From Flavobacterium ovatum (GTDB taxonomy: Bacteria > Bacteroidota > Bacteroidia > Flavobacteriales > Flavobacteriaceae): DNA of 64,000 nt. Shown here piece by piece: positions 17,299-45,401 of the stretch. The notes below the pieces were generated by a model that made no database searches, was not told the DNA's origin, and saw only the letters and a list, made by a program, of their open reading frames with translations. Numbering within the stretch: the stretch's first letter is position 1; each line of letters opens with the position of its first letter. A program made the translations under genes and the position numbers. The DNA lies in contig NZ_CP160035.1 of NCBI RefSeq assembly GCF_040703125.1, positions 2,817,001-2,881,000 on the forward strand, in the 5' to 3' direction.

Positions 17299-17306
17299 TT
17301 TTTTAA

Positions 17307-17498: not shown

Positions 17499-17735
17499 TT
17501 ATAAGGATTTGTGTGTCCCATCGCAAAATGGTACGTTACCAGACTGCTTGCATCCACACCAAGCCACTGTTTTTTCTTAGGTTATGATTTCTATAATAGG
17601 ACTAAGGTCTGTTTTTTTATGTGAGCCGTCACGGTAAGGTTGGTTTTTACTTTCGCCGCAAGCGCACCACGCATAAGTACCGGCAGAAACCTTAATTACA
17701 TAAGGTTCTTTTTGAGGAATACTTGGTTTTTTCAT
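17499..17735 (-). pseudogene. CDGSH iron-sulfur protein gene with an internal stop
   Basis: The minus strand from the ATG at 17735 reads 78 codons in one frame as a two-domain CDGSH protein. Domain 1 is WCACGESKNQPYRDGSHK and domain 2 is WCGCKQSGNVPFCDGTHK. A TAA (17577-17579) interrupts codon 53 between the domains. Domain 1 has also lost its third ligand cysteine (RDGSH instead of CDGSH, a one-base TGY to CGY change). CDGSH proteins carry a redox 2Fe-2S cluster. Two lesions in an otherwise conserved frame point to a decaying gene, although a one-base sequencing error could explain the stop. It lies beside redox genes (msrBA, a thioredoxin-like gene). Confidence 0.8.
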
Positions 17736-18715: not shown

Positions 18716-19216
18716 TTAATCTTGTGTAGATTGTAAATAACCTATTGCCGTTTTTGAATTGAGATGAAAGTCATTGAAAACAACGATCCCGTTTGAATCA
18801 ATAATAACAAACCAAGGTGTCCCTCTAGTTTGATAATGCTGCATTGTTTTAGAAATAAAAAGGGTAGTCGCATCGCCACTATCGTGTCCAAAAGGTATTT
18901 TTAAAGCGTATTTTTTTTGATTTACGAGGAGTTTGTCAAAGGTATTCTCAAGTTGCCCTTCAAAAACAGTTTGAATAGCAAAAATAGCAATATTTTTATT
19001 TTTAACTAATACTGTTATCAATCTCTTTAAAGCCGGAAATCCAATAGTGTGACAACCTTGACACCAATCTTGGAAAAAGAACAAAACTCTTTTTTTACCT
19101 ATATAATTTCCAAAATCAATACGGTCATCAAGTTCCCCGTTTTCATTAATCCAACTGGAAACTTCCCATTTTGGAGCAGTCTGTCCCAAAATTCCATAAG
19201 AGTGGTTTTGGTTCAT
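18716..19216 (-). CDS. Thioredoxin-fold (AhpC/TSA- or TlpA-like) redoxin
   Basis: A 166-residue cytoplasmic protein with a redox motif in FFQDWCQGCHTIGFPALKRL (WCxxC near residues 53-56) and a later cis-Pro region (RGTPWFVIIDSNGIVVF). Its fold is that of TlpA/ResA/AhpC redoxins. No signal peptide is seen. It is the first gene of an operon with msrBA, 2 bases apart, which suggests a reductant or peroxidase role in oxidative stress repair; that is inference. Confidence 0.8.
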   Translation of the reverse strand: MNQNHSYGILGQTAPKWEVSSWINENGELDDRIDFGNYIGKKRVLFFFQDWCQGCHTIGFPALKRLITVLVKNKNIAIFAIQTVFEGQLENTFDKLLVNQKKYALKIPFGHDSGDATTLFISKTMQHYQTRGTPWFVIIDSNGIVVFNDFHLNSKTAIGYLQSTQD

Positions 19217-19432
19217 AATAACATTTTTAGGTTAAATAAGTGACTTTTTACATGAGGCTTCTAATTAGTTAAGCCTGTTATTCATATGAATATGCTGAAC
19301 TATTTTTATAAGATTTTAAATAGGTTCAGACTGATATTTTACAATCTTATAAACAAATTTTGAATTCTAATTAGCGAACTATGATTAAGAGGGCGCAATT
19401 GTATTCATAGTTTATCGTACTATTTCTATCAA

Positions 19433-31321: not shown

Positions 31322-31579
31322 TTAATCGTAATGATGTCTACATTTTAAAATTTGAATTTCATCATCGATAAATCGGTAGATCAATCTATGTTCGTCATCA
31401 ATCCTTCTTGACTAAAATCCAGCATATTTAGGTTTCAACCCTTCTGGTTTTCCTATTCCTTCAAAAGGATTTCTAGCAATATCTTTAAGTAGATCATTTA
31501 TTTTCTTAACTTTCTTTTTGTCGATTTTCTGCCAATACAAATAATCTTCCCATGATTCATCTACAAATACATATTTCAT
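31322..31579 (-). pseudogene. Txe/YoeB-type toxin with a nonsense mutation
   Basis: The frame from the ATG at 31579 reads 85 codons as a Txe/YoeB mRNA interferase: VFVDESWEDYLYWQKIDKK, then IARNPFEGIGKPEGLK, then SRRIDDEHRLIYRF and ILKCRHHYD. A TAG (31412-31414) stands exactly where the family has the W of the G-[FY]-W-SRRI motif, a one-base TGG to TAG change. All later conserved residues (R, H-H-Y end) are intact, so the lesion is recent or is a sequencing error. The ATG lies 1 base after the antitoxin stop. A truncated toxin would lack the catalytic C-terminus. Confidence 0.85.
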
Positions 31580-31580
31580 T

Positions 31581-31835
31581 CTATTCTTCAATTAGGTCTT
31601 TAGAAAACGTATTTCCGTTTTTAAATTTATCAATTGCAGCATCTAATCTTCTTTCGTTAGTCCTGCTAGATAATTCATAATTTGTAGCAATAAGCGAATT
31701 GTATTCCTCAAGAGATATAACCACAATTCCTGAATCTTTACCGCGATTGATTATTAGCGTTTCAAAGTTGATTGCTACTCGATCAAAATACGATTTGATA
31801 TCTTTTCTGAATTCTGAAATATTTGTAACTACCAT
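31581..31835 (-). CDS. YefM/Phd-type antitoxin
   Basis: An 84-residue antitoxin. The N-terminal Phd/YefM DNA-binding fold runs MVVTNISEFRKDIKSYFDRV...LIINRGKDSGIVVISLEEYNSL, and a charged C-terminal tail wraps the toxin. It is intact while its toxin is broken. Its promoter box TAAATTTG (31853-31860) lies between two TGTACA operators, so it should repress itself. It forms a toxin-antitoxin cassette at the end of the integron-like array. Confidence 0.9.
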   Translation of the reverse strand: MVVTNISEFRKDIKSYFDRVAINFETLIINRGKDSGIVVISLEEYNSLIATNYELSSRTNERRLDAAIDKFKNGNTFSKDLIEE

Positions 31836-31847
31836 AATTAATGTATT

Positions 31848-31867
31848 TTGTACAAATTTATGTACAA
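31848..31867 (-). promoter_or_regulatory. yefM-type operator and promoter
   Basis: Two TGTACA hexamers (31849-31854 and 31861-31866) are centred 12 bases apart within an inverted repeat TTGTACA...TGTACAA. This is the known YefM-YoeB operator layout. The -7 box TAAATTTG falls between them. Confidence 0.75.
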
Positions 31868-31965
31868 TACTTGAGTATTTTATAGTTTTTAACGATTTAT
31901 TATGGGCAAAGACAGTTTGTCATTGTTTAAGTATCTCTAGATTACCGAACGTCTTTTAAACTATC

Positions 31966-32097
31966 GCCTAACGTTTGGTCGCTTGGCGATGTGGCGATTT
32001 TTACCACAAATGTTGATGCGGAGAACCAAACTTTGATTAACCACAAAACTGTCTGCGGAGCACTGAACCGCCACTTTTGCCAAACGCCTGTTATGCC
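31966..32097 (-). repeat. attC-like site A (end of the AbiE/IS66-fusion cassette)
   Basis: It begins GCCTAAC (31966) and ends GTTATGCC (32090-32097). Arms CTTGGCGATGTGGCG and CGCCACTTTTGCCAA pair imperfectly with unpaired bases, around a variable loop. The GTTATGCCT at its right end is the exact inverse of AGGCATAAC at 36555-36563, i.e. the other end of the same cassette. It lies 38 bases after the AbiEii stop. Confidence 0.75.
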
Positions 32098-32134
32098 TTC
32101 GTTCTTCTTTCTGCAGTGTCATTGTCTGTTAAGG

Positions 32135-33154
32135 TTAGTGTTGTATTTCATTTATTCGCTTTTGCAATTCAGTCAGTCTGTTTATGAGTTTATCAAATTC
32201 TAATGGTTGACCGTAAATCATACTACCTTTCATTTCTTCATAGTCAGCTTCCCACATTTTTATGATGGAATCGGGTGGAATAAATTTGATGTTTGCAGGA
32301 TTGTGTTTTGCATAATCAATACCTGAAATAGCATTGAATTTACTGCGATGTTTTACGATTGTGTTATATAGCTCCGTGTCTTGCAATGCAATTTCTGCAT
32401 ATTCCGTTTGGCTTAGTTTTTCAATGTCGTAAAGGTGCCTGCTAAGACGTTCAACTCGTATTTTGTCAAACGGTTTCTGAAATTCTTCGTGCAATAAAAA
32501 TATCTTCTCTAAAAATGTCCGTTCAGGATTTACAATAGGAATTGTTATTGGTTTGTCTGTGAAAGGATTATCTGTGTAGATTTCAGAAACAAACGTACCG
32601 AAAGTCCTTTGTGTAAAAGGTTCTTTCAATGAGCGACTGCCAACTTCCACCAGAACACCTGGTTTTAAATAAGTATCTGTCTCTGTGAGTTTGTTGTAAT
32701 AGATTTCAATAATTAGAGGGTCTTGGTCGTGATTTTCTACTTCACGAGGTTTTATAGTTACATCTTTGAAACCCAATTCGACAAATTTATTTTTCAATTC
32801 TTCGGTAAAAACTTCTGAGATAAATTGAAACGATTTTCTTCTAAGTTTTCTGACGTCGCCTTTTGTGAGTTCGCCCGAAAAACCAAAAAATTCTCTATCT
32901 AATGCCAAATCAATATCTTCTGAAAATCGGTGTATTACGTTCCAACCTTTGCTTAATGAAGTTCCGCCTTTAAAAATCAGGGCATTGGCACATTCCATTG
33001 AAAAAATTATTGCCAATGTGTGAACTACCCACCAATCTTTTTCTGCGGCTGATGTAGAAGGCAAACCAATTTGTCGGCTTGTTTCTGCAAACAATCTGAT
33101 TTTAGTTTCATCGGGTAGTTGAAACCATTCTTGTAAATGTGTAAACTTATTCAT
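32135..33154 (-). CDS. AbiEii-type nucleotidyltransferase toxin
   Basis: A 339-residue protein of the AbiEii/AbiGii family, the toxin of a type IV abortive-infection system. The nucleotidyltransferase signature is FKGGTSLSKGWNVIHRFSEDIDLALD (GGTSLS then D-I-D-L near residues 63-83). The rest is the usual helical domain with RTFLEKIFLLHEE. It overlaps the antitoxin gene by 8 bases. Together they shut growth down on phage infection in other hosts. The start ATG at 33154 is inside the antitoxin end, as usual for the pair. Confidence 0.9.
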   Translation of the reverse strand: MNKFTHLQEWFQLPDETKIRLFAETSRQIGLPSTSAAEKDWWVVHTLAIIFSMECANALIFKGGTSLSKGWNVIHRFSEDIDLALDREFFGFSGELTKGDVRKLRRKSFQFISEVFTEELKNKFVELGFKDVTIKPREVENHDQDPLIIEIYYNKLTETDTYLKPGVLVEVGSRSLKEPFTQRTFGTFVSEIYTDNPFTDKPITIPIVNPERTFLEKIFLLHEEFQKPFDKIRVERLSRHLYDIEKLSQTEYAEIALQDTELYNTIVKHRSKFNAISGIDYAKHNPANIKFIPPDSIIKMWEADYEEMKGSMIYGQPLEFDKLINRLTELQKRINEIQH

Positions 33155-33743
33155 TGTCCAGAATCAATTTTCTAATCCAAACAGGTGCTAATTGCAAATC
33201 GTGTTGTAAGTGTTTTGGATTTTCATTTTTCAAAATCTTCTTTATCTGTTTTATTTCTTCTGCCGACGCTTGGTCTTTGCCGATTGTCCGTAATGCTTGA
33301 ATTGCCAATGTGCTGATTTCGCCAACAAACGCCAAGTTCTTGGAACTCGCTTTTTTAAACGTAATGGTTTGTTTTCCGATTTTTATTTTTCGTGCTGAAG
33401 TGTCCGAATAAAAAACAATGTTTAGCGGCACTTGCGTTGTCAAGCCCAATTTATACATTGCGTAACTTCCTGTCGGTACAATCGTAGCTCTGTCTCTTTT
33501 TGCTATTGCTATGGCAATTTCTTCAATGCTCGGTAACACTTTCCCGATATAATCGTCAATGACAGGACGAACATAAATACCTTGTGCAACTCGTTCTATT
33601 TCACCCGACTTTACTAAGCGTTCCAATGCCTTGTTTGCTGATTTAGCATTAGCAATTTTGGTAAAACTTTCCACAAAGAAAAGCGTTCCTCTTGGACTTC
33701 TCTTTAACTTATCTAACACTTGTATTTCAATGCTTTTTGACAT
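33147..33743 (-). CDS. AbiEi-type antitoxin/regulator (DUF6088-like)
   Basis: A 198-residue protein with an N-terminal winged helix (DKLKRSPRGTLFFVESFTKI...NKALERLVKSGEIERVAQG) followed by an AbiEi C-terminal domain (LPSIEEIAIAIAKRD...YAMYKLGLTTQVPLNIVF). It neutralises the AbiEii toxin and represses the operon. A 13-bp inverted repeat with the promoter box lies 14 bases before its start. It is the first gene of the AbiE operon. Confidence 0.88.
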   Translation of the reverse strand: MSKSIEIQVLDKLKRSPRGTLFFVESFTKIANAKSANKALERLVKSGEIERVAQGIYVRPVIDDYIGKVLPSIEEIAIAIAKRDRATIVPTGSYAMYKLGLTTQVPLNIVFYSDTSARKIKIGKQTITFKKASSKNLAFVGEISTLAIQALRTIGKDQASAEEIKQIKKILKNENPKHLQHDLQLAPVWIRKLILDNE

Positions 33744-33756
33744 TTTTACGCTTTAA

Positions 33757-33791
33757 TTTTGTCGCAAATTTAGTAAATATTTGCGACAAAA
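33757..33791 (-). promoter_or_regulatory. AbiEi operator and promoter
   Basis: Perfect 13-base arms (TTTTGTCGCAAAT at 33757-33769, reverse complement at 33779-33791) span the -7 box TAAATTTG on the minus strand (33765-33772). AbiEi regulators bind inverted repeats here. Confidence 0.75.
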
Positions 33792-33830
33792 AATGAATTG
33801 AGAATAATGTTTATATAAAAATTGAAGCGG

Positions 33831-36482
33831 TTACTTTTCTGAATATTCATAAATGCTTTTTTTGCCCGATTTTAAAAACTCAAAGAAATTTGTGCCTTGA
33901 TATTTACAAGTTTGAAGTATCGAAAGCAAAATCAAGTGATGTTCTATGTTTTTCTTTGAGAGGCTTTTGCTGACTTTCTTTCTCCATTTGGCAAATGGTT
34001 TTATGGAGTGTTCTGCATTATTGTTATTCCAAGGAATACCATCGTGATTTAAAAACAAAAATAATTTCTCTTTGTATTTGATAAATCGTTTTTGATAGGA
34101 AATGGCTAAGTCAGATTCAAATTCTGGTAAAATAACTTTCTTGTAAAATTTTTCTACTTCTTTTTTGTGCTTATTCAAATGAAACTTTTTTAAGCCATAT
34201 TTGTCAATCGTAGCAATGATATTCCGCAGTAGGTTTCCAAATTCTGATATTATCTGTTTAAATTCTTCGTCCAATTGATGTTTCATAAAATCTTCATTCA
34301 AATCACGAATAAGATGAACTAAACATTTTTGTTGCTCGCACTCCATAGAGTCATATCCTGTATAAAAATCAGAAACCAGAACACCTTTGAAGTCCCTTAA
34401 GAGTTCTTTCAAAAACTCAGGTTCTCTTGTTTCTCGAAATTGGTAATAAACACTATCATAATTGGCAAATACCCAAACATATCCATCAATTCCATTTATA
34501 CGTGCAATAGTTTCATCTGTATGAATGAGTTTTGACTGGCTCATTTTTTTGATAATTTCATTGTACGTTTCTTCATATTTTGTTGCTATGATTTCTTTGA
34601 AACGAGTCATTTGAGTAGCCGAAACACCTATGTTGAATGAGTCTTTCAGTAAGTTTATAATACTTTCCGTACTAAGTTTGTATTGAATTTTTTGGTTGAC
34701 TGACCACAACATTAAATTATACCCGTAGGTAGGCAATCTTCTCATATCCTCTACCATAAAGTTTTTTTTACAATTTTTACAAAAATATGCTCCACCTTGG
34801 TATTCTATAACTTGTTTTTTTATCCCAGACTTCATAAATACCAAATCAATTTGTGGCTTTTTGCTACTTCTGATTATTTTGATGTCTTTGTTACTGCATT
34901 TTTCACATTTATCAGGGAATAGGTTGATTTTTTTGTCAATGCGATTGTATTGCTTTGAAGTTTGTTTGGTTTTTGAAATGGCTTTATAAACTTTTCGTTC
35001 GGTTCGCAAAAAAACATGTTGTCTTTGGTAGTCAAAATAGGCTTTTGCATTGATTTCGTTAAAATGCTCAAGAGCAAAGACAGTTACGCCCCACTTGAAA
35101 ATATTTTGCTGTTTAATGCTATTAGCTAAAACCGTTTGGTCATTATTTTCGGAAAGTGAAATAAGCCATTCCTGAACTTTTATCAAAGCCCTACAATCCT
35201 CGATATTATAGGTAATCAATTTTTCTTTCAGGTAGTTTGTCGGATTCAACTCCCAATTATATCTCCAAATAATGCTTTGTAATCCTGATGCTTTTTCATC
35301 TGTCCAATTAAATTCCATATAGTTTCCTATATCTTTTAATCCGTTGGTATATGTCGGAGTGTAGATATCATTCGAAAATAGTGTAAGTACATTGAACGAA
35401 TTTTCAATGATTTTCTTTATTCTGTTTTGATAGGGCAGAGAAACTTTCTTGGCGATTCGTTTTAACACCTGAATTTCATAAGAACCATAATGATAAAGAA
35501 TAAAATCATTTTGCGTGTTAATTAAATCAATGAATTGTATAAAAACATTCTGTTGTTCAGTAACATTATTTGCCCAAAACGAATATTCTGTTGCTGAATT
35601 TTCTGTTTTGACGATTACTCCAATTAAGTAATAAAAATCTCTGTCGGGAATACTCTCAATATCAAAGAATATTTCCGTTGTTTTTTTTACTAATTCAGGC
35701 AATTTTTGAATAAAAACTTTTTGCTCCCTAATTGCCAATGCCTTTAATTCAGGTAGAAACTTACGTCTTCGGTATGGGTTTTTTTTCGGTCGAAAATTAT
35801 ATGATAACTGCTTTACAGAGAAAATACCTCTGTTGTTTTTTTGTTCAATTTCTTTCGGTTTTAAATTTCCTAAAAGGCTCAAATCATCTCTTTCTTGTAG
35901 CTTTTTGATACATATCGGATTAAACTCGCATACTTGACAATGGCTAATTTTATAAAATACAGGATGAGTTTCAAATTTTTTAATTTGCTCAATCGTAGCA
36001 ATTATTTTCTTTACATCTTTTGAGAGATTTCTCAATATTACTTTTGTGCTTTTCTGTTGACTGCCAAATATTATTCTGACTTCTTCAATTTTGAGGTTGA
36101 AGTTCTGTTGCAGGTAATGAGATTGTAACGCAATGAATAGTTTGTCTGATTTTTGGACTTTCTCAAATGGAGAAATAAGAATAGGTGCAAAACTGTTTCT
36201 ATGGTCGTAATAAATTCCGTCCAATTTCAAATCTACTTCTGCATTTTTGAATGAAATCTGAAGATAGGTTTTTCCTTTTTCAAACTTTAAATTAGATGAA
36301 TAATCAATATTTTGAAAATCTAATGAGAGTTTAGTTTGTATTACTGATTGTTGTTTTTGTTTTAGCGTTTCAAAAATAGTTTGAAATTCTGTCTGAGGTA
36401 ATTGATTTCCTTGAACCTTTTTTAAAAAGGCTTTGTGGTTGCAATGAATAACAGCGTGTAGAATTTCATTGGTTATTTTCAT
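33831..36482 (-). CDS. RecB-like/DEDD nuclease fused to an IS66-family transposase
   Basis: An 883-residue fusion. Residues 1-200 resemble the TM0106 RecB-like nuclease (ICIKKL preceded by CQVCEFNPIC, an Fe-S-type cysteine set). Residues about 265-445 are a YprB-like DEDD 3'-5' exonuclease (EIFFDIESIPDRDFYYLIG, then FILYHYGSYEIQVL, then YNIEDCRALIKVQEW). About 520-590 hold paired CxxC zinc motifs. About 600-865 are an IS66 TnpC DDE core: HTDETIARINGIDGYVW, LVSDFYTGYDS, NNNNAEHSIKPF. All three DDE residues are visible. No IS66 TnpA/TnpB or inverted repeats flank it. It is in the AbiE cassette, upstream and in the same direction. The role is unknown. Confidence 0.75.
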   Translation of the reverse strand: MKITNEILHAVIHCNHKAFLKKVQGNQLPQTEFQTIFETLKQKQQSVIQTKLSLDFQNIDYSSNLKFEKGKTYLQISFKNAEVDLKLDGIYYDHRNSFAPILISPFEKVQKSDKLFIALQSHYLQQNFNLKIEEVRIIFGSQQKSTKVILRNLSKDVKKIIATIEQIKKFETHPVFYKISHCQVCEFNPICIKKLQERDDLSLLGNLKPKEIEQKNNRGIFSVKQLSYNFRPKKNPYRRRKFLPELKALAIREQKVFIQKLPELVKKTTEIFFDIESIPDRDFYYLIGVIVKTENSATEYSFWANNVTEQQNVFIQFIDLINTQNDFILYHYGSYEIQVLKRIAKKVSLPYQNRIKKIIENSFNVLTLFSNDIYTPTYTNGLKDIGNYMEFNWTDEKASGLQSIIWRYNWELNPTNYLKEKLITYNIEDCRALIKVQEWLISLSENNDQTVLANSIKQQNIFKWGVTVFALEHFNEINAKAYFDYQRQHVFLRTERKVYKAISKTKQTSKQYNRIDKKINLFPDKCEKCSNKDIKIIRSSKKPQIDLVFMKSGIKKQVIEYQGGAYFCKNCKKNFMVEDMRRLPTYGYNLMLWSVNQKIQYKLSTESIINLLKDSFNIGVSATQMTRFKEIIATKYEETYNEIIKKMSQSKLIHTDETIARINGIDGYVWVFANYDSVYYQFRETREPEFLKELLRDFKGVLVSDFYTGYDSMECEQQKCLVHLIRDLNEDFMKHQLDEEFKQIISEFGNLLRNIIATIDKYGLKKFHLNKHKKEVEKFYKKVILPEFESDLAISYQKRFIKYKEKLFLFLNHDGIPWNNNNAEHSIKPFAKWRKKVSKSLSKKNIEHHLILLSILQTCKYQGTNFFEFLKSGKKSIYEYSEK

Positions 36483-36555
36483 TTAGCCAAGTGTTTACAT
36501 TTCGTTTATTCTTTTAACATTCTTTGATGTTTAGCACGGTCGTTTTATAGAATGA

Positions 36556-36681
36556 GGCATAACGTCTTGGCGCTTGCCGAGGTTGGGGGCTTTTGAAACC
36601 TAGTATTTTCGGCTTAACGTAAATGTAGTTAAAAAACGCTAATTCCACTAAATCCCCAATCTTGGCAAACGGCTGTTGAAC
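36556..36681 (-). repeat. attC-like site B (end of the IS91 cassette)
   Basis: It begins GGCATAAC (36556-36563) and ends GTTGAAC (36675-36681). Arms GCTTGCCGAGGTTGGGG and CCCCAATCTTGGCAAAC pair with a few bulges. The GTTGAAC end is matched by the inverse GTTCAAC at 38944-38950. The loop lies in a 250-bp ORF-like frame that I do not regard as a gene. Confidence 0.75.
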
Positions 36682-36830
36682 TAAACCTTCGGTAGTGTAT
36701 TGGGTTAAATAGCAGTCCTTTGTAAAAGTAAATAAAAACTTTATAGGATGAATAAAAAAAACCACTAGAAGAATTAAAGTACAACAAAATCATCAATCAG
36801 GCCATACGAAACGTACCTGATTTTGAATCC

Positions 36831-37694
36831 TTGTTGGGCAGATTTGAACGCACAATTTCAGTTTTAGGACGCAGTCAGAGCACTTTTTCTAATTACTCCC
36901 GCCATGTTGCTTCGATGGCGTTGCATTTTGGTAAGATTCCAACAGAGTTGGATGTAGAGCAAGTACAGGAGTACCTGTTTATGCTACAAAAACGATCTAA
37001 GACACCTTCTCAAACTTACTTTAAACATTGTGTTTATGGACTGAGATTTCTACTCAAGTCCGAAGGATTGCCTTATGAGTACCTGCATTTACCTTCGATT
37101 AAGCACGAGAAAAAACTCCCTACGGTACTCAGTAAAGAAGAAGTTTGGCGGATGCTCAAAAGTTGTCAGTTGCTCAAACACAAAGTCCTAATCGGACTTT
37201 TGTACGGCTGTGGACTTCGTTGCATGGAAGCGCGATCGGTACGCTTACAAGACCTTGATTTTGACCGTCAGCAACTTAAAGTAGTTCAGGGAAAAGGCAA
37301 AAAAGACCGCTATGTTCCGCTATCGGAGCATCTTATTCGGGTGCTAAAAGTATATATTGAAGCCGAAAAACCAAAAACCTATCTCTTCAACGGGCAACCT
37401 GTAGAACGCGCAGGTGGAGACTTTGACTCTCGTTATTCCCAACGTGGCGTGCAATGGGCAGTCAAACAAGCTAGTAAAGCTGCTGGAATCACCAAAGAGG
37501 TTTGCGTACATACGCTCCGACACACTTTTGCCACGCACTTACTCGAGGATGGACTTGATATTGTGAGCCTAAAAAACCTTTTGGGACACGAACAAATCGA
37601 GACTACGATGGAATACCTGCATATCGCTCAACTCGACACCCAAAAAGCTTTTAGTCCGCTCGATACCTTGTTTGCCAAGTGCGGCAAGAAGTAG
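36831..37694 (+). CDS. Tyrosine recombinase of the IS91-type unit, frameshifted N-terminus
   Basis: A 287-residue recombinase from a TTG at 36831. Catalytic residues: Arg in YGCGLRCMEARSVRL, HxxR in HTLRHTFATHLLEDG, His/Tyr in LLGHEQIETTMEYLHIAQ. The true start is probably the ATG at 36748: from there the peptide MNKKKPLEELKYNKIINQ... would join this frame if the A8 run at 36754-36761 had nine As. So there is a one-base deletion, or slippage on the A-run restores the frame. Enzymes of this type accompany IS91 transposases in Bacteroidota. Its C-terminus (FSPLDTL) resembles that of the integrase at 44358. Confidence 0.8.
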   Translation: MLGRFERTISVLGRSQSTFSNYSRHVASMALHFGKIPTELDVEQVQEYLFMLQKRSKTPSQTYFKHCVYGLRFLLKSEGLPYEYLHLPSIKHEKKLPTVLSKEEVWRMLKSCQLLKHKVLIGLLYGCGLRCMEARSVRLQDLDFDRQQLKVVQGKGKKDRYVPLSEHLIRVLKVYIEAEKPKTYLFNGQPVERAGGDFDSRYSQRGVQWAVKQASKAAGITKEVCVHTLRHTFATHLLEDGLDIVSLKNLLGHEQIETTMEYLHIAQLDTQKAFSPLDTLFAKCGKK

Positions 37695-38788
37695 CCCATG
37701 TACTAGAAAAACTCGGGACAAAGATTGATGATTTAGGACTCAACAGTTGGCAACTGCGCACCTTATCGGCAGTTCGTAGGTGCAGAACGGCAGCTTTGGG
37801 AGGTCATATTGACGCTTGTGATTCCTGCGGAAACATCAGCATAAGCTACAACTCCTGCCGCAATCGGCATTGTCCTAAATGTCAAGGCAAAAACCGAGAA
37901 GATTGGATACAAGCACGGCAAAGCGAACTCTTGCCTGTGCCGTACTTCCATGTGGTTTTCACATTGCCTGAAGGGATTAATCCACTTGCGATAAAGAATC
38001 CAAGATTGGTGTATAATTTGCTGTTCGAATCGGCTTGGGCAACGCTCAAAACATTTGGAGTACGAAAAGAAATCCAAAGCGGAATGATTGCTGTTTTGCA
38101 CACTTGGGGACAGAATTTATCACTTCATCCGCACCTGCATTGCATTGTGCCGGGTGGTGGAGTTGACAAAGGCGGCAACTGGAAAAGTATTCGAGGAGAT
38201 GGGAAATACCTCTACAATGTCAAAGCGTTGTCCAAGGTATATCGAGGGAAATTCTGCGATGCTTTGAAGCAGCGAGATCCTGATCAGTACACCCGAGTGA
38301 AGAAACAACTATGGGAGAAACCTTGGGTGGTATTTGCCAAAAAGCCTTTTGGTAATCCGAATTCAGTTGTTGAGTATCTTGGTAGATATACCCATAAAAT
38401 AGCGATTAGTAACAACCGATTAAAAAGCATTGATGATCAAAATGTAAGTTTTCATTACAAAGATTACCGTCAGAATGGGCAACGCAAAAGCATGACCCTC
38501 ACACATGAGGAATTTATCCGACGTTTTACGATGCATATTTTGCCTAAAGGATTTGTAAAATTACGGCATTATGGCTTTTTGAGTAGCAATTGGAAACGAG
38601 AGAAACTAAAGATTTTACAAGAAAAACTAAAGGTACAACCCCAAATAAAAGTAGCCAAAGAATCGAAAATAAGAAAGTGTCAATGTTGTAAAACGGGCAA
38701 TTTGCACACAATTCTAATGTTCGACCAACGAGGACCGCCTACTTGGTATCTTGGCAGTAGCCAAAAATTAGCTCCCTGTAACAATTAA
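37679..38788 (+). CDS. IS91-family (HUH) transposase
   Basis: A 369-residue transposase of the IS91/IS801 type, moving DNA by rolling-circle transfer. The N-terminal zinc cluster is CDSCGNISISYNSCRNRHCP with CQGKNR. The HUH is in HTWGQNLSLHPHLHCIVPGG. The downstream catalytic region holds YLGRYTHKIAISNNRL with the Y (residue about 235). It starts with GTG inside the end of the integrase gene, overlapping by 16 bases, so translation is coupled. The frame is intact. Confidence 0.9.
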   Translation: MRQEVAHVLEKLGTKIDDLGLNSWQLRTLSAVRRCRTAALGGHIDACDSCGNISISYNSCRNRHCPKCQGKNREDWIQARQSELLPVPYFHVVFTLPEGINPLAIKNPRLVYNLLFESAWATLKTFGVRKEIQSGMIAVLHTWGQNLSLHPHLHCIVPGGGVDKGGNWKSIRGDGKYLYNVKALSKVYRGKFCDALKQRDPDQYTRVKKQLWEKPWVVFAKKPFGNPNSVVEYLGRYTHKIAISNNRLKSIDDQNVSFHYKDYRQNGQRKSMTLTHEEFIRRFTMHILPKGFVKLRHYGFLSSNWKREKLKILQEKLKVQPQIKVAKESKIRKCQCCKTGNLHTILMFDQRGPPTWYLGSSQKLAPCNN

Positions 38789-38866
38789 CGTTGTGGGTAA
38801 GGGCATTTGTGTCCAACGGTGAAGGAAAATACAATAAAACCAGCCTAATTTACGGCTCAAAAAAAA

Positions 38867-38887
38867 AAGAGGACGTTTTGTCCTCTT
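38867..38887 (-). terminator. Hairpin near the right end of the IS91 unit
   Basis: Arms AAGAGGAC and GTCCTCTT around GTTTT, followed on the minus strand by a run of Ts. It could end transcripts from the protease cassette. Confidence 0.55.
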
Positions 38888-38943
38888 AAAATCCCTAAAC
38901 TTGTTTATCGATATCCCCATAGTGGCGGAAGTAGAGCGGTTCC

Positions 38944-39004
38944 GTTCAACCGCGGTTTCATTGTTGGCTTTTCAAGCCCAACGAAACCTTAGCTGTTATG
39001 TGCC
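38944..39004 (-). repeat. attC-like site C (end of the protease/DUF2971 cassette)
   Basis: The shortest and clearest site, about 60 bases like a classical 59-base element. GTTCAAC (38944-38950), arms GGTTTC-A-TTG-TT-GGC and GCC-CAAC-GAAACC, then GTTATGTGCC (38995-39004). The last block is the exact inverse of GGCACATAAC at 40842-40851, the other end of the protease cassette. Extra unpaired bases lie on one arm. It is 5 bases from the protease stop. Confidence 0.8.
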
Positions 39005-39008
39005 GTTT

Positions 39009-40013
39009 TTATTCGTCTTCTAATGTAAAATCTAATATTCTAGCTTTAAGAACATAGCCTTTTTTGAAGCTATCCATAAAAATAGTATGATTACATTCTA
39101 TCGTTTTAGCCAGAAATGGCTTAATTCCGTTATCTTTTCTATAACCACTAAAATAAGTATCTTCATAATAATTCACAATAACTCCTGTGTTATCATAAAC
39201 CAAAATCAATACTTTTATGCCACTTACAGATACAGGAAGATTATTTTTTATTGAAAAATTAAAACTAAATTCGTGACTACAGCCCCAAGCAAGGTTTCTT
39301 ATTATTACACCTTCTTTAATATTAGGCTTTATTACATTTGTTTTTGTAGACTTTAAAGGTTTCTTTACAGTTGAGACTGGAGTTAAAACTCCTAAATTGT
39401 TCATTAATGCTGATAAATATTCAACTGGAATTGCAAAATTTAAGTTTTGCCCTTCACTGTAAGTTGCGAAAGCAACCCCAACAACTTCGCCTTTTAGATT
39501 TACAACAGGACCACCGCTACTACCTGGCGATATTGGAGCAGTAATTTGCAAAACTTGATTTTTATCAAAATTTCGAATTCCACTAATTATTCCTTCTGAA
39601 AAAGTTCCATTAAATCCTTTTGGATTTCCTATTGCATATATTTTTTCTCCAATTTCAGGAATATTTCCTTTATTTAGAATCATACTCTTATGTTTTAGTC
39701 CTGAAACCTTTAAAATCACTAAATCATTTGATTTGTCTATTGACAAATATCCATCTATTTTATATTTTTTTTCTTGACCATTTACTAAAACATAGGCTGA
39801 AGAACTTCCTTCAATAACGTGAACATTAGTTGCTATTAATTCGTCTTCAATAATAAAACCTGAACCAAATCCTAATGGTTGTGAAGTGTTATCTAATGCG
39901 ACTATTGAAACAGTTGATTGGATTGCATTTTTTGCTATTTCAGTAGCAGATTGACTAAAGGCAAATGAAGAGGAGAGTAAAACTGTAAGTATTAATAAAT
40001 AATTTTTTTTCAT
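39009..40013 (-). CDS. Secreted trypsin-like serine protease
   Basis: A 334-residue protein with a signal peptide (MKKNYLLILTVLLSSSFAFS). The protease domain (about 35-200) has the catalytic triad: His in IATNVHVIEG, Asp in SIDKSNDLVILKV, Ser in SPGSSGGPVV. There is no PDZ; the C-terminal ~120 residues (ACSHEFSFNFSIKNNLPVSV onward, with cysteines) look like an immunoglobulin-like/FxLYD type domain. It starts 5 bases after the DUF2971 gene, in the same operon and cassette. The trypsin-like plus DUF2971 pairing suggests an effector role, but I infer no fixed function. Confidence 0.85.
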   Translation of the reverse strand: MKKNYLLILTVLLSSSFAFSQSATEIAKNAIQSTVSIVALDNTSQPLGFGSGFIIEDELIATNVHVIEGSSSAYVLVNGQEKKYKIDGYLSIDKSNDLVILKVSGLKHKSMILNKGNIPEIGEKIYAIGNPKGFNGTFSEGIISGIRNFDKNQVLQITAPISPGSSGGPVVNLKGEVVGVAFATYSEGQNLNFAIPVEYLSALMNNLGVLTPVSTVKKPLKSTKTNVIKPNIKEGVIIRNLAWGCSHEFSFNFSIKNNLPVSVSGIKVLILVYDNTGVIVNYYEDTYFSGYRKDNGIKPFLAKTIECNHTIFMDSFKKGYVLKARILDFTLEDE

Positions 40014-40018
40014 CGTGT

Positions 40019-40795
40019 TTATTTTAATATAGAGTATTTTATTTTTTTGTTTAGGTTGTATTTTATAGTTAAGTCTTGAATTATATCATAAAACCATTTT
40101 GGAGAATAAGGACTTAAAATTATTTCGTCAATCAATATTTCTAAATTATTATTTAATTGCTTTCCTGAACTATTAGCTTCGGAATCCCAATCGTATACAA
40201 GACCATTTTCTGCTTTTACTAAATGAATTAATCTCAACTCATCTTCATAATTATAAGCAATATTTTTATGAATAATCGGATAGTTTAGATTGCCTTTTCC
40301 AATTAAGTCAGTTTCGTGATTTATATATCTAACTTCACTTAATTGTATATTTTCAGTCGTTGTCTCAAATGATTTAATTAAATTTTCAATATTTGAGGTT
40401 ATCATAATTCCTTTATTTATTTCAGAATAAATTTTCCACAAAGCATAAGATTCTGAATTATATTTATTCCAACAACAAATGCAATTTAAGCTTTTAAATT
40501 TCTCTTCGATATCTTTTCTATCCGATACATCTTTTGCAACGGATTCGTCAATATTAGAAGATTTTAAATGTTTTTGTTCGTAAAGTTGTCTATACCAATA
40601 TTCGTTATATTCTAAATTAAGTTTAGGAGAAGAGCCTTCAAATTTATCTTCTAATTTATCTAAACGACAAAAAAAGAGAGATTTTGAATGTAATAAAGAG
40701 ATGAATTTTGCTAAATCCATATATTTTACAATATTGTAATTGTCCTCTGGAAAGAAAACTGGTGCTGTTTGGTCAGTTGGTTTTTCAATTGGCAT
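40019..40795 (-). CDS. DUF2971 domain protein
   Basis: A 258-residue DUF2971 protein. Typical parts are the N-terminal YMDLAKFISLLHSKSLFFCR with LDKLEDKFEG, then CICCWNKYNSESYALWKIY, and YNYEDELRLIHL. The family is of unknown function and frequent in phage-defence and mobile regions. It is first in the operon with the serine protease in a cassette of two genes. The C-terminus has the usual IDEIILSPYSPKWFYD. Confidence 0.88.
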   Translation of the reverse strand: MPIEKPTDQTAPVFFPEDNYNIVKYMDLAKFISLLHSKSLFFCRLDKLEDKFEGSSPKLNLEYNEYWYRQLYEQKHLKSSNIDESVAKDVSDRKDIEEKFKSLNCICCWNKYNSESYALWKIYSEINKGIMITSNIENLIKSFETTTENIQLSEVRYINHETDLIGKGNLNYPIIHKNIAYNYEDELRLIHLVKAENGLVYDWDSEANSSGKQLNNNLEILIDEIILSPYSPKWFYDIIQDLTIKYNLNKKIKYSILK

Positions 40796-40841
40796 AAATT
40801 CAATTTTATGGTTTTATTTTTCTGCGATTTTTTGGCAAAAT

Positions 40842-40981
40842 GGCACATAACGTTCCCGTGCTTTGCGAGGTTTGGGACTAAATTAAGATTTGTTTTTCGG
40901 TTAAACACAAGTTTTCCAAGTACAAAACCAACTTTAAATTAAGCCAAAAACCCAAATCTCGCAAAACATCGTGTTAGTGGC
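40842..40981 (-). repeat. attC-like site D (end of the STAND NTPase cassette)
   Basis: It begins GGCACATAAC (40842-40851) and ends GTTAGTGGC (40973-40981). Arms CTTTGCGAGGTTTGGG and CCCAAATCTCGCAAAA pair over about 15 bases. GTTAGTGGC is the exact inverse of GCCACTAAC at 43813-43821, the other end of this cassette. It lies 20 bases from the stop of the NTPase gene. Confidence 0.85.
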
Positions 40982-41001
40982 TGGTTTTGTTTGTCTAAAT
41001 T

Positions 41002-43755
41002 CTAATACTGTTCAATTTCGACTATTTCTTCAGCAGGTGTTGGTTTTCCATTTAATTGTAATTTAGTATACTTAATTGCTAACTTAGAGTTTAGCTCAAT
41101 AAAACCCCATCTATTCCATCCTTGGTCAAAATTATAAACGGATAAAAAGAATTGATTTTTCTCATTATCTTCTGCAAAAAGAAAATTTGAAATACCAAAA
41201 CCACGATCATCTGGAATATGATAAACTTGAACAATTATAAAGCCTTTTTGAATAAGTTCTTCAATATGTTCACTATCATAAGTAGTTTCTGTTTGATTAA
41301 CGTACCATTTTACTGAATGTAATGGATTTGGATTTAGTTTTAAATTATATATTCTTTCTAAAAATTTTTGATTTTCAAGTGAACTAATACTTTCGTTTTT
41401 CAATCTACTCAATATGTTAAAATAATGATTTGATATGAACTTTACCCAAGAAGAAATAAAATTTTCACTAAAAGTCTTTTTTGATAAAAGTATTTCAATT
41501 TCTTTTATTAATTTATTTGACTCAATACATGCTACATCTTGATAATTTTCTGTGTTAAAAATATTTTCAAAAATTTCAATTGATTTCAAAATTGTACTTT
41601 CGGTATCTTTATCAGATAAACGACTAAATTCTACACTTCTTTTGAGTGCTGAAGCTCTGTAAACGCCATACATTACCTTCCATATTGGAGAATTTTCCCA
41701 ATTTTCAGTTATAGTAATAATCTTATCATATTTGCCTAAATATAATAGGCTTAAAAAGTATAATTTAGTTATGCTATAACTAAATTTATTAGACGAAATT
41801 AACGGGTCATCATATTTTTTACTTAATAAATATTCAAATACTTTTAATGCTTCATCATAATCACTTTTGTAAAAATGATGTAAAGCAATTGCCATTTTAA
41901 TTCTTGGAGATTCAGAATTTATTTTTTCTGCGTTATTTAGAATTTCTAATTCTCCAGTTGTATCTTTTAGTTGTTTTAATATTCTAGAATAATGATATAA
42001 AAGTTGAATATCGTTAGCTCTATATCTTATAGAATCTACAAATCTGGTTTTTAATTCAATTAAATCATTATGATTTCTATTTGAAGGATGTATCGCAAGA
42101 AATTTATTGAGGTCAACAATTAATCCGTGAACAGTTGAATCTGTTTCTGTAGAAACAAATTCATCATCAAATTCAGAAACACCTAATTGTTGATTTTTTT
42201 TTGTTTGCTCAATAATTTTTTCTTTTCTCTTTTTTAAACTTTCAGAAATTTGATTTCTTATTTCAATGTTTTTTGGATTAATCAATAGTAAGTCTCTAAT
42301 TGACTCACTCAATTTATAACTGTCATTACCAAACTCTTCGGTTCTTCTAATTATTAAACTTGTTTTAGATAATTCGTTGATTGATTGAGTAATCTCTTCA
42401 TTTGAAAGGTCTAGAAAATCGATTAATTCGGATTTAGTAGAATCGCTAATTACATAAATTGCTTCTAAAATAGAAATAGAATGATTACTTAAAGATTCTA
42501 TTAAATTCTTATATGAAAAAGATGCAATATCTTTTTGAGATTTTTGTATTGATTGAGATATGTCAATACCTTTATTATACAAATCTATTGTTAATCTTAT
42601 TGCTAATGGGTTATTATTAGCAGCATCAGCAATTTTTTCTAAATCCTCTAATTTAAAATCATTAACACCTCTTTTTCTTAAATAATTTCTACTCAAATTA
42701 ACTGCATGCCTTTTAACTAATGGCTCTATTGGAACAGTAGTAGCTGAATCGATGGATATTCTACTTGTTACCATTACTCTCCATAATAGAGGAAGGGACT
42801 CATTAAATTCAATAAATTCTGTTTGAGAATGAACTAGAAGTGTTTCAAGGTTATCAATACAAATTAGAATTTTCTCGTCTTGTAATTTATTACAAGCATC
42901 CTCGAAATCATTTAGTTCTTTTTGATTGTATAATTTTTTTAAATCTTCAAGGATTGATTCTTTTATTTGTTCAATACCATTTATTGCTTCAATAATTTCT
43001 ATTCCATTAGCGGTTAACCTTTCATTTTTGAGTGTGCAAAAAAGTATAGAGCTAATTTTATTACTCCAATTAGGACTTAAGCTTAAATCTTTAAGGAATT
43101 GTAAAATTAAAGCAGTTTTACCAATACCACCAGGTGCAACAATTGCAATTAAATTATTTCTTACTTTAGAAAGAACAGAATCTAAATCTTTAAATTCCTT
43201 TTCTCTACCTAATAAGCCTGTAATTTCATGGTCAAATGAGTGAGGCAATGTATTTGGAATTGCCCAACTAACATTTGAAATCCAGTCTTCTGGAGGCATA
43301 TTTAAATTTTCTTCAACAGCAAAATTTAATGCTTGTCTAACGCTATTTAAACCAACTTTATCAATTAGTGGATCACTTGCTATAGTTGCAGCTCTGAACC
43401 AATAGCAATCGGGGAAAGGACGATTTGGATGGCTTATAGCATTTCTAATGTCAAAAACTCCTAATATTGAGCATAGCAATTTTAAATCTGTAATGTGTTT
43501 GTTTATTGAAATTCCTTGTGTTGAATCAATTGCAAAATTGAAAATTTCATCTAAATAGCTTGATTCAACAATTAAATTAATATTGTCTTTTGAAATCTCA
43601 TTTCCTTTTCTTTTTTCTCTATCAATTATTGTCGTTTTGCTTTCTTCACTAATATTGTCAAGCACTTCATTATCTAAAACATAATTACCAAGTGCTAATT
43701 CAAGTTCATAAATAATCATAGCACTTTTAATTCTTAATTTTTGTTGAGCATCCAT
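41002..43755 (-). CDS. HEPN-NB-ARC STAND NTPase with TPR-like repeats
   Basis: A 917-residue signal-transduction ATPase (STAND). The N-terminal ~170 residues are helical with a HEPN RNase motif (R-x4-H in RNAISHP). The NB-ARC domain (about 195-420) shows Walker A VAPGGIGKTALIL, Walker B ILICIDNLE and the sensor VMVTSR. Residues about 550-760 look like TPR helices (LRH of ALKVFEYLL, AIALHHFYKS). A small C-terminal beta-rich domain follows. An earlier ATG at 43830 is inside the attC-like site E, so the ATG at 43755 (MDAQQKLRIKS) is preferred. A phage-defence ATPase with an RNase effector is the likely role; that is inference. Confidence 0.75.
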   Translation of the reverse strand: MDAQQKLRIKSAMIIYELELALGNYVLDNEVLDNISEESKTTIIDREKRKGNEISKDNINLIVESSYLDEIFNFAIDSTQGISINKHITDLKLLCSILGVFDIRNAISHPNRPFPDCYWFRAATIASDPLIDKVGLNSVRQALNFAVEENLNMPPEDWISNVSWAIPNTLPHSFDHEITGLLGREKEFKDLDSVLSKVRNNLIAIVAPGGIGKTALILQFLKDLSLSPNWSNKISSILFCTLKNERLTANGIEIIEAINGIEQIKESILEDLKKLYNQKELNDFEDACNKLQDEKILICIDNLETLLVHSQTEFIEFNESLPLLWRVMVTSRISIDSATTVPIEPLVKRHAVNLSRNYLRKRGVNDFKLEDLEKIADAANNNPLAIRLTIDLYNKGIDISQSIQKSQKDIASFSYKNLIESLSNHSISILEAIYVISDSTKSELIDFLDLSNEEITQSINELSKTSLIIRRTEEFGNDSYKLSESIRDLLLINPKNIEIRNQISESLKKRKEKIIEQTKKNQQLGVSEFDDEFVSTETDSTVHGLIVDLNKFLAIHPSNRNHNDLIELKTRFVDSIRYRANDIQLLYHYSRILKQLKDTTGELEILNNAEKINSESPRIKMAIALHHFYKSDYDEALKVFEYLLSKKYDDPLISSNKFSYSITKLYFLSLLYLGKYDKIITITENWENSPIWKVMYGVYRASALKRSVEFSRLSDKDTESTILKSIEIFENIFNTENYQDVACIESNKLIKEIEILLSKKTFSENFISSWVKFISNHYFNILSRLKNESISSLENQKFLERIYNLKLNPNPLHSVKWYVNQTETTYDSEHIEELIQKGFIIVQVYHIPDDRGFGISNFLFAEDNEKNQFFLSVYNFDQGWNRWGFIELNSKLAIKYTKLQLNGKPTPAEEIVEIEQY

Positions 43756-43812
43756 TAATTTATTTTTATTATTTTCTAGACAATATTTTCTTCTGTATTC
43801 GGTAATAAACTT

Positions 43813-43945
43813 GCCACTAACGGTAAGCATTGTTGCAGTTGTGGTTTTGACTGCCTAATATCTTGATTTAAAAACCATAAAAACAAGTACAAAAAATAAT
43901 AACCAAAGCCAAATGCCACAATTGCTACAATGCATTGTTAGGGAA
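43813..43945 (-). repeat. attC-like site E (end of the small-ORF cassette)
   Basis: It begins GCCACTAAC (43813-43821) and ends GTTAGGGAA (43937-43945). Arms GCATTGTTGCAGTTGTGG and CCACAATTGCTACAATGC pair over 18 bases with two mismatches. GTTAGGGAA is the exact inverse of TTCCCTAAC at 44247-44255, the first cassette's start at the attI-like site. Confidence 0.88.
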
Positions 43946-43968
43946 TCGGCTTTTTTAAACTAAATATT

Positions 43969-44229
43969 ATGAATATTCAAGACGAATTACAAAAAATCCA
44001 TCATCAATATGGAACTACAGAAAAAGCTAATTATGAGATACAAAAAATGTTTGATTCTGAAATTAACAAATACAAGAAAAAAGCTGAGAAATGGGATAAA
44101 CTGGGTGATGAAATCGAAAAATATTATGAATCAGAGGACGAGGACAATGATGACGATGAGTATGATAGAGAAGAAGGTAATTTACTAGATATAGGAGAAG
44201 CGGCAGCTAGTGCTTATGGGTATCTTTAA
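43969..44229 (+). CDS. Small acidic hypothetical protein in the first cassette
   Basis: An 86-residue helical protein (MNIQDELQKIHHQYGTTEK) with a very acidic segment (ESEDEDNDDDEYDREE, residues about 57-72). I cannot assign a function. It is the only gene of its cassette and reads against the array direction. Acidic small proteins in such places are sometimes antitoxins, anti-restriction proteins or DNA mimics; this is only a possibility. Confidence 0.55.
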   Translation: MNIQDELQKIHHQYGTTEKANYEIQKMFDSEINKYKKKAEKWDKLGDEIEKYYESEDEDNDDDEYDREEGNLLDIGEAAASAYGYL

Positions 44230-44246
44230 CCGTTCCAACTAAGCTG

Positions 44247-44327
44247 TTCCCTAACTAGTATATATGTGTGACAAAGTCACACAAAGCCACCCATTTATGG
44301 GTGTATATGTGTGATAACTATCACACA
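44247..44327 (-). other. attI-like site with three palindromes
   Basis: Between the array and the recombinase gene there is the core TTCCCTAAC (44247-44255, on the minus strand GTTAGGGAA). Next come three perfect palindromes: TGTGTGAC-AAA-GTCACACA (44265-44283), CACCCAT-TT-ATGGGTG (44288-44303) and TGTGTGATA-AC-TATCACACA (44308-44327). The two TGTGTGA repeats about 43 bases apart fit integrase-binding sites. The recombinase stop is 30 bases away. Confidence 0.65.
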
Positions 44328-44357
44328 ATATTTACTTTCAAATATATTATTTTTTTC

Positions 44358-45401
44358 TTACAAATCATCAAAAGGACTTTTTATTTGTTGCAAACTTTTT
44401 GTACTTACGTGGGTGTAGATTTCGGTTGTTTTGCTACTGTTGTGGCCTAATAGTTCTTGAATATAACGTAAATCGGTTCCGCTTTCTAATAAATGGGTGG
44501 CGTAACTGTGTCGCAGCCAATGTAAGGTAACGGGCTTTGTATTGCCTATTTTTTTTAAGGCTTGTTTTAAAACACTTTGCAAACTATATTCAGAGTACAT
44601 TTCTCCTGCATTTTGTCCTTCAAACAGCCATATTTTAGGCTTGTACGCGATGTAATATTCACGAAGCATTGCTAATATTTTGGGTGATAAGGGTGCGATT
44701 CTGTCTTTTTTTCCTTTGGCGTTTTTTAGCAACACAATATTTCTTTTAGAATCGATATCTGAGAATTTTAAATTTAAAAGCTCACTTCTGCGCAATCCAC
44801 AACTGTAAATCATGCTTAGCATCATTTTGTGTTTGATGTTGGAGTGAGCATTGAGTATCAGTTTTACTTCTTCTTTGCTCAAAACATTGGGTAAAACTTT
44901 GGCACGTTTTGGACGATGTATTTTATCAACTAACATCTTGGTGTCTCTAATGGTCTGAAAAAAGAGTTTTACCGCATTTACCGTTTGGTTTTGATAAGAA
45001 GCTGAAAGATTATTCTTTAAGATATAGTCATTATTATAGATAATCACATCTTCATTAGTGATTTCGGCAATTGGTTTTTCTCTATAAAACACCAAAAAAG
45101 ATTTTAAAGCTTCGCTATAGGTCACAACTGTGCTTTGGCTATATCGTTTGGAACGCAACCATTGCTTAAATTTTTCGATTTGTTCCATTCCTTCGGATGA
45201 CGGAAGGTTATTGGATTGTGGCACTATTTTAAATCGAATTCGGTTTTCGACGGTGTCGGGAAGATGCCAAGCCACGAGTGAAGGACTCCATCTAGCGCCC
45301 TCGACTTGTTTTATGCGACGGATTAAGTCCGTGTTTTTTTCAAAATACACGGCTATTCTGTTGTTGCCTTTGTATTTTATGGGTTTTGCTGACCAATTCA
45401 T
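44358..45401 (-). CDS. Tyrosine recombinase at the head of the cassette array
   Basis: A 347-residue recombinase. Residues 1-60 form a small extra domain (RIAVYFEKNTDLIRRIKQ, then RWSPSLVAWHLPD). The core-binding domain covers about 75-165. The catalytic domain has Arg in YSCGLRRSELLNLK, HxxR in HWLRHSYATHLLES, and His/Tyr in LLGHNSSKTTEIYTHV. The end QIKSPFDDL resembles the IntI ending. The extra helix patch that marks canonical IntI, inserted before HxLRH, is absent. It ends 30 bases from the attI-like site, so it is the likely recombinase of the array. It reads toward the array, as in reversed integrons. Confidence 0.85.
   Translation of the reverse strand: MNWSAKPIKYKGNNRIAVYFEKNTDLIRRIKQVEGARWSPSLVAWHLPDTVENRIRFKIVPQSNNLPSSEGMEQIEKFKQWLRSKRYSQSTVVTYSEALKSFLVFYREKPIAEITNEDVIIYNNDYILKNNLSASYQNQTVNAVKLFFQTIRDTKMLVDKIHRPKRAKVLPNVLSKEEVKLILNAHSNIKHKMMLSMIYSCGLRRSELLNLKFSDIDSKRNIVLLKNAKGKKDRIAPLSPKILAMLREYYIAYKPKIWLFEGQNAGEMYSEYSLQSVLKQALKKIGNTKPVTLHWLRHSYATHLLESGTDLRYIQELLGHNSSKTTEIYTHVSTKSLQQIKSPFDDL

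Follow-up and report, generated by a model that had tools for sequence, protein, structure and literature searches.

An integron-like cassette array in Flavobacterium ovatum headed by a tyrosine recombinase that lacks the IntI-specific region

Organization of the array

The subject of this work is a chromosomal gene array in the closed 4.25-Mb genome of Flavobacterium ovatum, contained in a stretch of 64,000 nucleotides (NZ_CP160035.1, positions 2,817,001 to 2,881,000; hereafter "the window", whose numbering is used throughout). Read 5′ to 3′ on the minus strand, the array comprises a tyrosine recombinase gene, a stretch of inverted repeats of about 100 bp with TATATACTAG/TT at its end (the slash marks the crossover), and four cassettes. 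It is very likely a cassette array with site-specific, integron-like exchange. A preliminary description, made from the sequence alone, had proposed a non-canonical integron with a recombinase at its head and five attC-like palindromes, the two ends of each cassette matching as inverse copies. All five palindromes and all five matching ends are present in the sequence, the product of the open reading frame (ORF) at 44358-45401 is a tyrosine recombinase by Pfam, and the general proposal stands on the array itself, the attI-like site, the cassette-specific ends, and the whole-unit movement found in relatives. The count of sites had to be lowered: four were recovered by our covariance model R1 and have ends matching at 9/9 positions, and the fifth (38944-39004) belongs to an IS91-like element, one end of which it forms.

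The recombinase gene (44358-45401, minus strand) encodes 347 amino acids, with an extra N-terminal alpha/beta domain (residues 1-58), a SAM-like domain, and a catalytic domain, without the IntI-specific insertion; this annotation combines Pfam and NCBIfam, an alignment to the Protein Data Bank (PDB), an anchor-length comparison, and an AlphaFold2 model. The attI-like region (44255-44357, minus strand) runs from the recombinase stop to the crossover G/TT and carries a promoter-like TAnnTTTG box (44339-44346), the inverted repeats, and the terminal motif given above.

All four cassettes lie on the minus strand, and each ends in an attC-like site preceded by R'', the segment complementary to the cassette's own start. 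Cassette 1 (43821-44254; R'' 43937-43945, attC body 43822-43936, R1 match 43818-43942) holds a small acidic ORF on the opposite, plus strand (43969-44229). Cassette 2 (40851-43820; attC body 40852-40972, R1 match 40848-40978) carries an NB-ARC/AAA-type NTPase by Pfam (ORF 41002-43830, minus strand); its first ATG precedes the cassette, and the start codon likely lies inside it. This gene had been described as a HEPN-NTPase; the NTPase part holds, and no HEPN model matched at E 0.01. Cassette 3 (36563-40850; R'' 38995-39004, R1 match 36560-36680) has its attC split by the IS91-like element, the remainder being at 36564-36674, and encodes a DUF2971-type protein (40019-40795) and a trypsin-like protease (39009-40013), both on the minus strand by Pfam. 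Cassette 4 (31972-36562; R'' 32090-32098, attC body 31973-32089, R1 match 31969-32095) carries, on the minus strand, a Cas4-like/RNase_H_2/IS66 transposase fusion (33831-36482), AbiEi (33147-33743), and AbiEii (32135-33154). The AbiE, nuclease fusion, and protease cargo named in the preliminary description is thus borne out by Pfam and PADLOC matches.

Cassette ends pair with their own start

In each of the four window cassettes, bases 0-8 of the start are the reverse complement of the bases ahead of the cassette's own hairpin (9/9 each), and base 10 is an unpaired A. A cassette was scored as passing this own-end test with at least 5/6 matches at the variable positions 3-8, a level reached by 6.6% of random pairings of starts and ends among relatives' cassettes. 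In the first 21 loci, 106/123 cassettes paired with their own end versus 8/123 with the next cassette; in held-out cassettes from named records the counts were 183/201 versus 26/201 with the next start, and in 12 loci from more distant Bacteroidota 26/31 versus 2/31. A Vibrio integron submitted to the same test gave 22/34 own and 5/34 next. Left out of these counts were three partial or cut model matches of 127 in the first 21 loci, one match upstream of the recombinase and one partial match of 234 in the held-out set, and cassettes with fewer than 20 bases of following sequence (fewer than 16 in the distant set), as well as site pairs more than 6,000 bases apart in the arm scan (see below) and the distant set, or more than 3,500 apart in the Vibrio control. 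The 40 sites used for the model were picked for paired arms, and the cassette end is therefore the independent test.

These ends appear to fix complementarity and not sequence, where recognition of double-stranded DNA would be expected to fix the sequence. They also bear on the idea that the palindromes are terminators, REP- or MITE-like repeats (repetitive extragenic palindromes or miniature inverted-repeat transposable elements), or element ends, the array being a defence island assembled in some other way. An IS91-like element does end in one of the five palindromes, and transposases lie nearby, but repeats of this kind would predict neither the matching of ends to their own starts (183 against 26 of 201) nor the junctions exactly at G/TT that are described below, and we regard this explanation as exceedingly unlikely.

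Detection and anatomy of the attC-like sites

A scan for complementary arms that was blind to the cassette ends found 96 sites on the cassette strand of the 21 loci, 5 on the other strand, and none in shuffled sequence; at a laxer threshold the numbers were 105, 8, and 7, respectively. The preliminary description had suggested a covariance model, and R1, built from 40 such sites (39 from relatives and the window's 36560-36680, whose R1 match accordingly belongs to the training set as well), finds sites across the relatives' arrays. In the same 21 loci it gave 127 matches, 124 of them complete and all on the cassette strand, and in 80 named loci 234 matches, every one on the recombinase strand. 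R1 detects the four window sites and does not find the fifth palindrome. Nineteen stem pairs covary, with 247 cells changed on both sides as compared with a mean of 77 after shuffling and at most 59 with a slid partner. An Rfam search of the region returned two matches only, both at chance level.

The outer stem starts at the crossover G/TT and consists of nine, often ten, pairs, then an A, then four further pairs. All cassettes passing the own-end test (291/291) have A as base 10, and in the held-out set this A opposes C or G in 196/201 (T in 3, A in 2). The inner stem, separated from the outer one by a single base on the left side and by five bases on the right, consists of 13 mostly paired positions, a fixed A-C mismatch (80/92, position 14), and six further pairs. 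Ungapped pairing keeps its register across 20 stem positions, and the one-sided extrahelical bases (T12'', G20'') are lacking; these are a canonical attC feature according to PMC3053210 and PMC2727003. Nor does the core follow GTTRRRY/RYYYAAC: GTT is nearly fixed, with A or G at position 3 in 290/291, but only 146/291 have a purine at position 4. The bases at R positions 5 and 6 pair, yet their sequence information amounts to only 0.18 and 0.10 bits. Full-length R1 matches span 65 to about 190 nucleotides. Among the shortest are those of L160 (F. paronense), where three near-identical cassettes (11146-11584, 17275-17713, and 18893-19331) have attC sites of 65 nucleotides, half the usual size, with a short loop; these are genuine attC-like sites.

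In 266/283 sites the bottom strand has the more stable fold, with a mean difference of 4.1 kcal/mol, which is a hint and no proof of the strand used. Integrons recombine the bottom strand of attC (PMC2727003). At E 1, R1 matched nothing in a 52-kb stretch of a Vibrio integron, in which 37 sites had been located by motif, and nothing in the 599-kb record that contains it; this record and the 52 kb within it are the outgroup controls of the study, and the Vibrio site motif was taken in part from the site examples of a preceding Vibrio scan.

These properties can be set against Xer/dif-like recombination of double-stranded DNA, in which the sites would be palindromic by chance. The dif site is a short, conserved, double-stranded sequence with two fixed 11-bp arms. 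Such a reading could draw on the fixed GTT/AAC and on the resemblance of the recombinase to XerA, which is its best NCBIfam model and has the highest VIA Z score (23.9, at a root-mean-square deviation of 13.7). It is very unlikely, however, in view of hairpins with long covarying stems and of R positions 5 and 6, which are near random in sequence and whose cassette ends pair nevertheless. The catalytic fold and sequence are shared with XerA, XerC, XerD, and XerH; the long covarying hairpins with a variable core, the extra N-terminal domain, and the lack of a conserved dif site are not.

The attI-like region

Attachment regions were gathered by their distance from the recombinase stop and by the presence of AGTT; 44 were collected, five were removed because of their length or because they duplicated that of the window, and the attI-like regions of the remaining 39 sequences were aligned. 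Most end like TATATAC(A/T)AG/TT, and the sequence of the inverted repeat varies by species. TAnnTTTG, which we take to be the Bacteroidota -7 promoter box, occurs within the first 50 nucleotides in 32/44 collected regions, in 30 of these 9-15 nucleotides past the stop. Two close relatives (L145 and L146, compared over 10 kb) are 92.8% identical through the recombinase to the attI crossover; their homology stops there, after which they share a single stretch of 613 bp (96%). A conserved attI-like region thus lies beside the recombinase gene, and cassettes probably enter at it.

By eye, the inverted repeats of the window (44264-44345) and of the aligned relatives differ between species, stay complementary, and often flank CACCC...GGGTG. 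They may be recombinase binding sites co-evolving with the enzyme or, alternatively, RNA structure.

A recombinase family without the I2 region

The closest solved relatives of the recombinase are XerA and the Vibrio integron integrase, and the best solved structure in Foldseek is Vibrio IntI4. The top NCBIfam match, NF040815 (XerA), scored 217.3, under its cut-off of 220. The curated IntI model TIGR02249 scored 198.2 bits in two stretches, as compared with a cut-off of 265, with its positions 177-238 unmatched, and 0/21 related genomes exceed that cut-off. In the alignment to PDB entry 2a3v, residues 250 to 270 of the recombinase face 181 to 243 of the integron enzyme. Between two anchors there are 61-62 residues in 46/47 family members (an in-frame stop interrupts the remaining one, L020) versus 104 in 12/12 integron integrases, most of them named as Vibrio; the distance is 67 in a Xer-like protein of the same genome and 69 in the IS91 helper recombinase. 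The AlphaFold2 model (predicted local distance difference test 85) has no helix at 254-270. As judged from these comparisons, the IntI-specific (I2) region of about 42 residues is absent from 46 of the 47 aligned members. In the tree, the recombinases form their own clade (100/99), apart from ten IntI rows (99/96), most of which are named as Vibrio.

An ordinary IntI-class integron that has merely diverged is very unlikely. Such an integron would have the same plan of integrase, attI, cassettes, and R''/R' complementarity, and both the Foldseek result and the positive own-end test of the Vibrio integron are in its favour, but it is contradicted by the TIGR02249 scores, the shorter distance between the anchors, the separate clade, the failure of R1 on the Vibrio sites, and the fixed A-C mismatches found in place of one-sided extrahelical bases.

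For residues 1-58 AlphaFold2 predicts an additional alpha/beta domain. No significant Pfam match was obtained for this domain in the window sequence; DUF5710 matches the region in 13/34 relatives, with a best E of 2.7e-4. Foldseek ranks the HARP domain of SMARCAL1, a reader of fork DNA, first without significance (E 0.49). HARP had no significant match by sequence or fold and is not among the VIA matches listed, and the likeness, noted by eye and by rank, serves as a lead only. Relatives of the recombinase were also found on viral contigs (66, at 21-53% identity).

Movement of cassettes and their cargo

Cassettes move as exact, whole units. The first cassette of L107 (F. saccharophilum), located at attI, and the third of L140 (Flavobacterium sp. 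LC2016-12) are 99.6% identical, the identity starting exactly at the G of GTT and ending at most 5 bases from the next GTT; a second common cassette (95%) is found in reversed order. Similarly, L121 and L138 have a common unit (99.7%) with the same kind of G/TT junctions, which is the second cassette in both and has unlike neighbours. Near-identical duplicates (94-100%) are found inside the arrays of L040, L053, L107, L145, and L160. In the held-out set the longest ORF points towards attC in 153/167 cassettes, and the median cassette length is 767 bp.

Defence genes had been proposed as what the array collects. The window cargo is indeed rich in defence-like genes, with AbiE, the NB-ARC-type NTPase, a DUF2971/PDC-S31 protein, and the protease, which has an RT-Protease match. 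As a general function this is not supported, since among 150 proteins of at least 60 residues, out of 167 cassette proteins from relatives, no PADLOC family occurs more than twice and no Pfam family more than four times, those with a name being mixed. Defence is only one part of the cargo overall and much of that in the window.

Distribution

A search for the sites in related genomes, also suggested in the preliminary description, was positive in 106/121 genomes of the genus (E 1e-3) and in 41/44 recombinase loci with at least 2 kb of sequence after the gene. The recombinase itself was found in 63/121 genomes of the genus (E 1e-60). Across the order, 82/296 genomes have the recombinase (1e-50) and 111/296 the sites (1e-4); 70 have both, 12 the recombinase only, 41 the sites only, and 173 neither (p=2.8e-26). 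In the phylum, sites occur in 114/247 Bacteroidota genomes and 66/121 genera (1e-4). Searches that covered over 40 genomes were limited to 28 (genus), 11 (order), or 13 (phylum) scored candidates per genome, so the site numbers per genome are lower bounds. Draft arrays are probably undercounted, because 36/80 recombinase loci end less than 2 kb past the gene, as is expected if repeated attC sites break assemblies.

Of twelve loci from distant site-positive genomes, in stretches not chosen to include array heads, four have a relative of the recombinase beside the array. In L244 (65% identity) and L248 (40%) it stands at the array head and is read in the same direction, and in L249 the match is partial. 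The 45%-identical relative of L252 (10603-11409) stands at the array head but on the opposite strand, an arrangement known from classical integrons; the orientation of the recombinase gene may therefore vary.

Interpretation and relation to known systems

We interpret the locus, with a probability of about 0.9, as a chromosomal integron-like array whose recombinase inserts and excises cassettes between a double-stranded attI-like site and folded single-stranded attC-like sites. The substrate is likely the folded single-strand site. In this scheme, the recombinase would read the folded shape and not the sequence of the R stem, the marks being GTT, the variable bases, the unpaired A at position 10 with four more pairs, and the fixed A-C mismatch of the inner stem. 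The bottom strand would be the likelier substrate because the A-C mismatches become T-G wobbles on it. Cleavage is predicted at G/TT, so that the two ends of each circle would together restore a full hairpin. New cassettes would enter beside attI, downstream of the TAnnTTTG box, the predicted promoter. In integrons the choice of strand comes from I2; in an enzyme without it, that task would fall to the fixed mismatches and the additional N-terminal domain. This is the least certain step, and that these two features replace I2 is our guess.

Several observations weigh against this interpretation. Recombination was not observed, and no excised circle is known. Experiments summarised in PMC7790495 ascribe single-strand recombination to the I2 helix, the acquisition of which is presented there as the step that made integrases single-strand recombinases, and the IntI-specific domain was held necessary by Messier and Roy (2001), as cited in PMC9668308 and PMC2426708. 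In the Vibrio control the same fold calculation favours the bottom strand in 8/34 sites only, which indicates that fold energy alone does not identify the strand used. The pairing percentage of the first 40 sites is partly built in, as they were selected for paired arms, and the collection of attI ends used AGTT as a search criterion. Own starts are unpaired in 18/201 held-out cassettes, and 3/44 loci with room for a site have none. Finally, many genomes of the genus have sites without a close recombinase, and the association of the two within the genus is not significant (42, 2, 64, and 13 genomes with both, close recombinase only, sites only, and neither; p=0.08).

The array has in common with the Vibrio superintegron an integrase at the head, an attI, oriented cassettes, attC hairpins of similar size, and an R'' complementary to the cassette's own start. 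It differs in the lack of the I2 region, the extra N-terminal domain, stems that both carry fixed A-C (or A-G) mismatches in place of extrahelical bases, and an array located downstream of the recombinase; moreover, R1 finds no Vibrio control site. In Treponema integrons (PMC3607928) the recombinase gene likewise has the orientation of the cassettes, but these integrons are described as having a true intI, one species has GTTAGGT as an R' site, and the phylum is a different one. The system therefore works like an integron, fails on the domain that defines the integrase, and differs in its site.

Bacteroidota probably hold a second integron class, although we put this less firmly than the interpretation of the array itself: it would comprise a Xer-type recombinase without I2, with its own N-terminal domain reading DNA structure, and mismatch-marked hairpins, exchanging cassettes across the phylum. 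Integrons have rarely been reported in Bacteroidetes, and the IntegronFinder 2.0 survey gives one complete integron, in Salinibacter (PMC9024848); a review names Bacteroidota among the phyla with integrons (PMC8618304). In the open-licence literature, which excludes preprints and most subscription journals, no paper was found that apparently describes such a system. It was perhaps overlooked because IntI search profiles expect the domain that is absent here, and with sites in nearly half of the Bacteroidota genomes sampled a major gene-capture route may have been missed phylum-wide. If correct, an I2-less enzyme that works on folded sites would represent either a natural counter-example to the view of I2 acquisition in PMC7790495 or a second solution, and single-strand cassette recombination would have arisen by a route other than that acquisition. 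The system could also offer new tools for cassette engineering in Flavobacterium.

An IS91-like element in an attC and other features of the region

The IS91-like element (about 36675-38994, plus strand) contains a tyrosine recombinase gene (36831-37694) and an IS91 transposase gene (37679-38788), both on the plus strand and identified by Pfam. It runs from directly after the R'' of Cassette 3 to GTTCAAC at 36675-36681, beyond which the remainder of the attC continues. A 72%-identical element occupies the same place, right after the R'' end, in L044 (about 3425-5770) and L046 (about 2135-4469), both numbered in cassette orientation. Being placed in attC in three species, the element seems to have such sites as its target. 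The helper and array recombinases share 37% identity and the element sits exactly in an attC, but we read it as a transposable element that uses the array as a target and is not its driver.

The palindrome 38944-39004 was considered as a short attC and rejected, because in three species the IS91-like element ends in this same hairpin, further copies of which lie at five places in the F. ovatum genome. GTTGAAC and GTTCAAC are accordingly the ends of the element, and the window contains four cassettes, not five. At the five further places (L071-L075), the hairpin is mostly without the element and follows R''-like ends, some near solitary attC-like sites; two of the five copies adjoin GTTGAACCCTTCGACT-type repeats. 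These hairpins are possibly a small derivative element or the remains of old arrays.

The array end (31325-31971, minus strand) contains the toxin-antitoxin genes (31325-31835), which the preliminary description had counted as cargo. The genes are present, past the last attC, but are at most a putative cassette, for which no closing attC was found: within 4 kb there is no R'' with 8 or 9/9 matches, and neither of two 7/9 candidates has a model match. The YefM-like antitoxin is at 31581-31835. The YoeB-like ORF (31325-31579) has its Pfam YoeB_toxin match in the piece ahead of an in-frame stop, and the pair therefore looks broken.

In Cassette 4, the ORF at 33831-36482 is a single reading frame of 883 residues that joins a Cas4-like nuclease, an RNase_H_2 domain, and an IS66 transposase. 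Immediately upstream of the recombinase gene, two consecutive ORFs at 45789-46289 (without a Pfam match) and 46334-47197 (DDE_Tnp_1) may be a single broken transposase gene.

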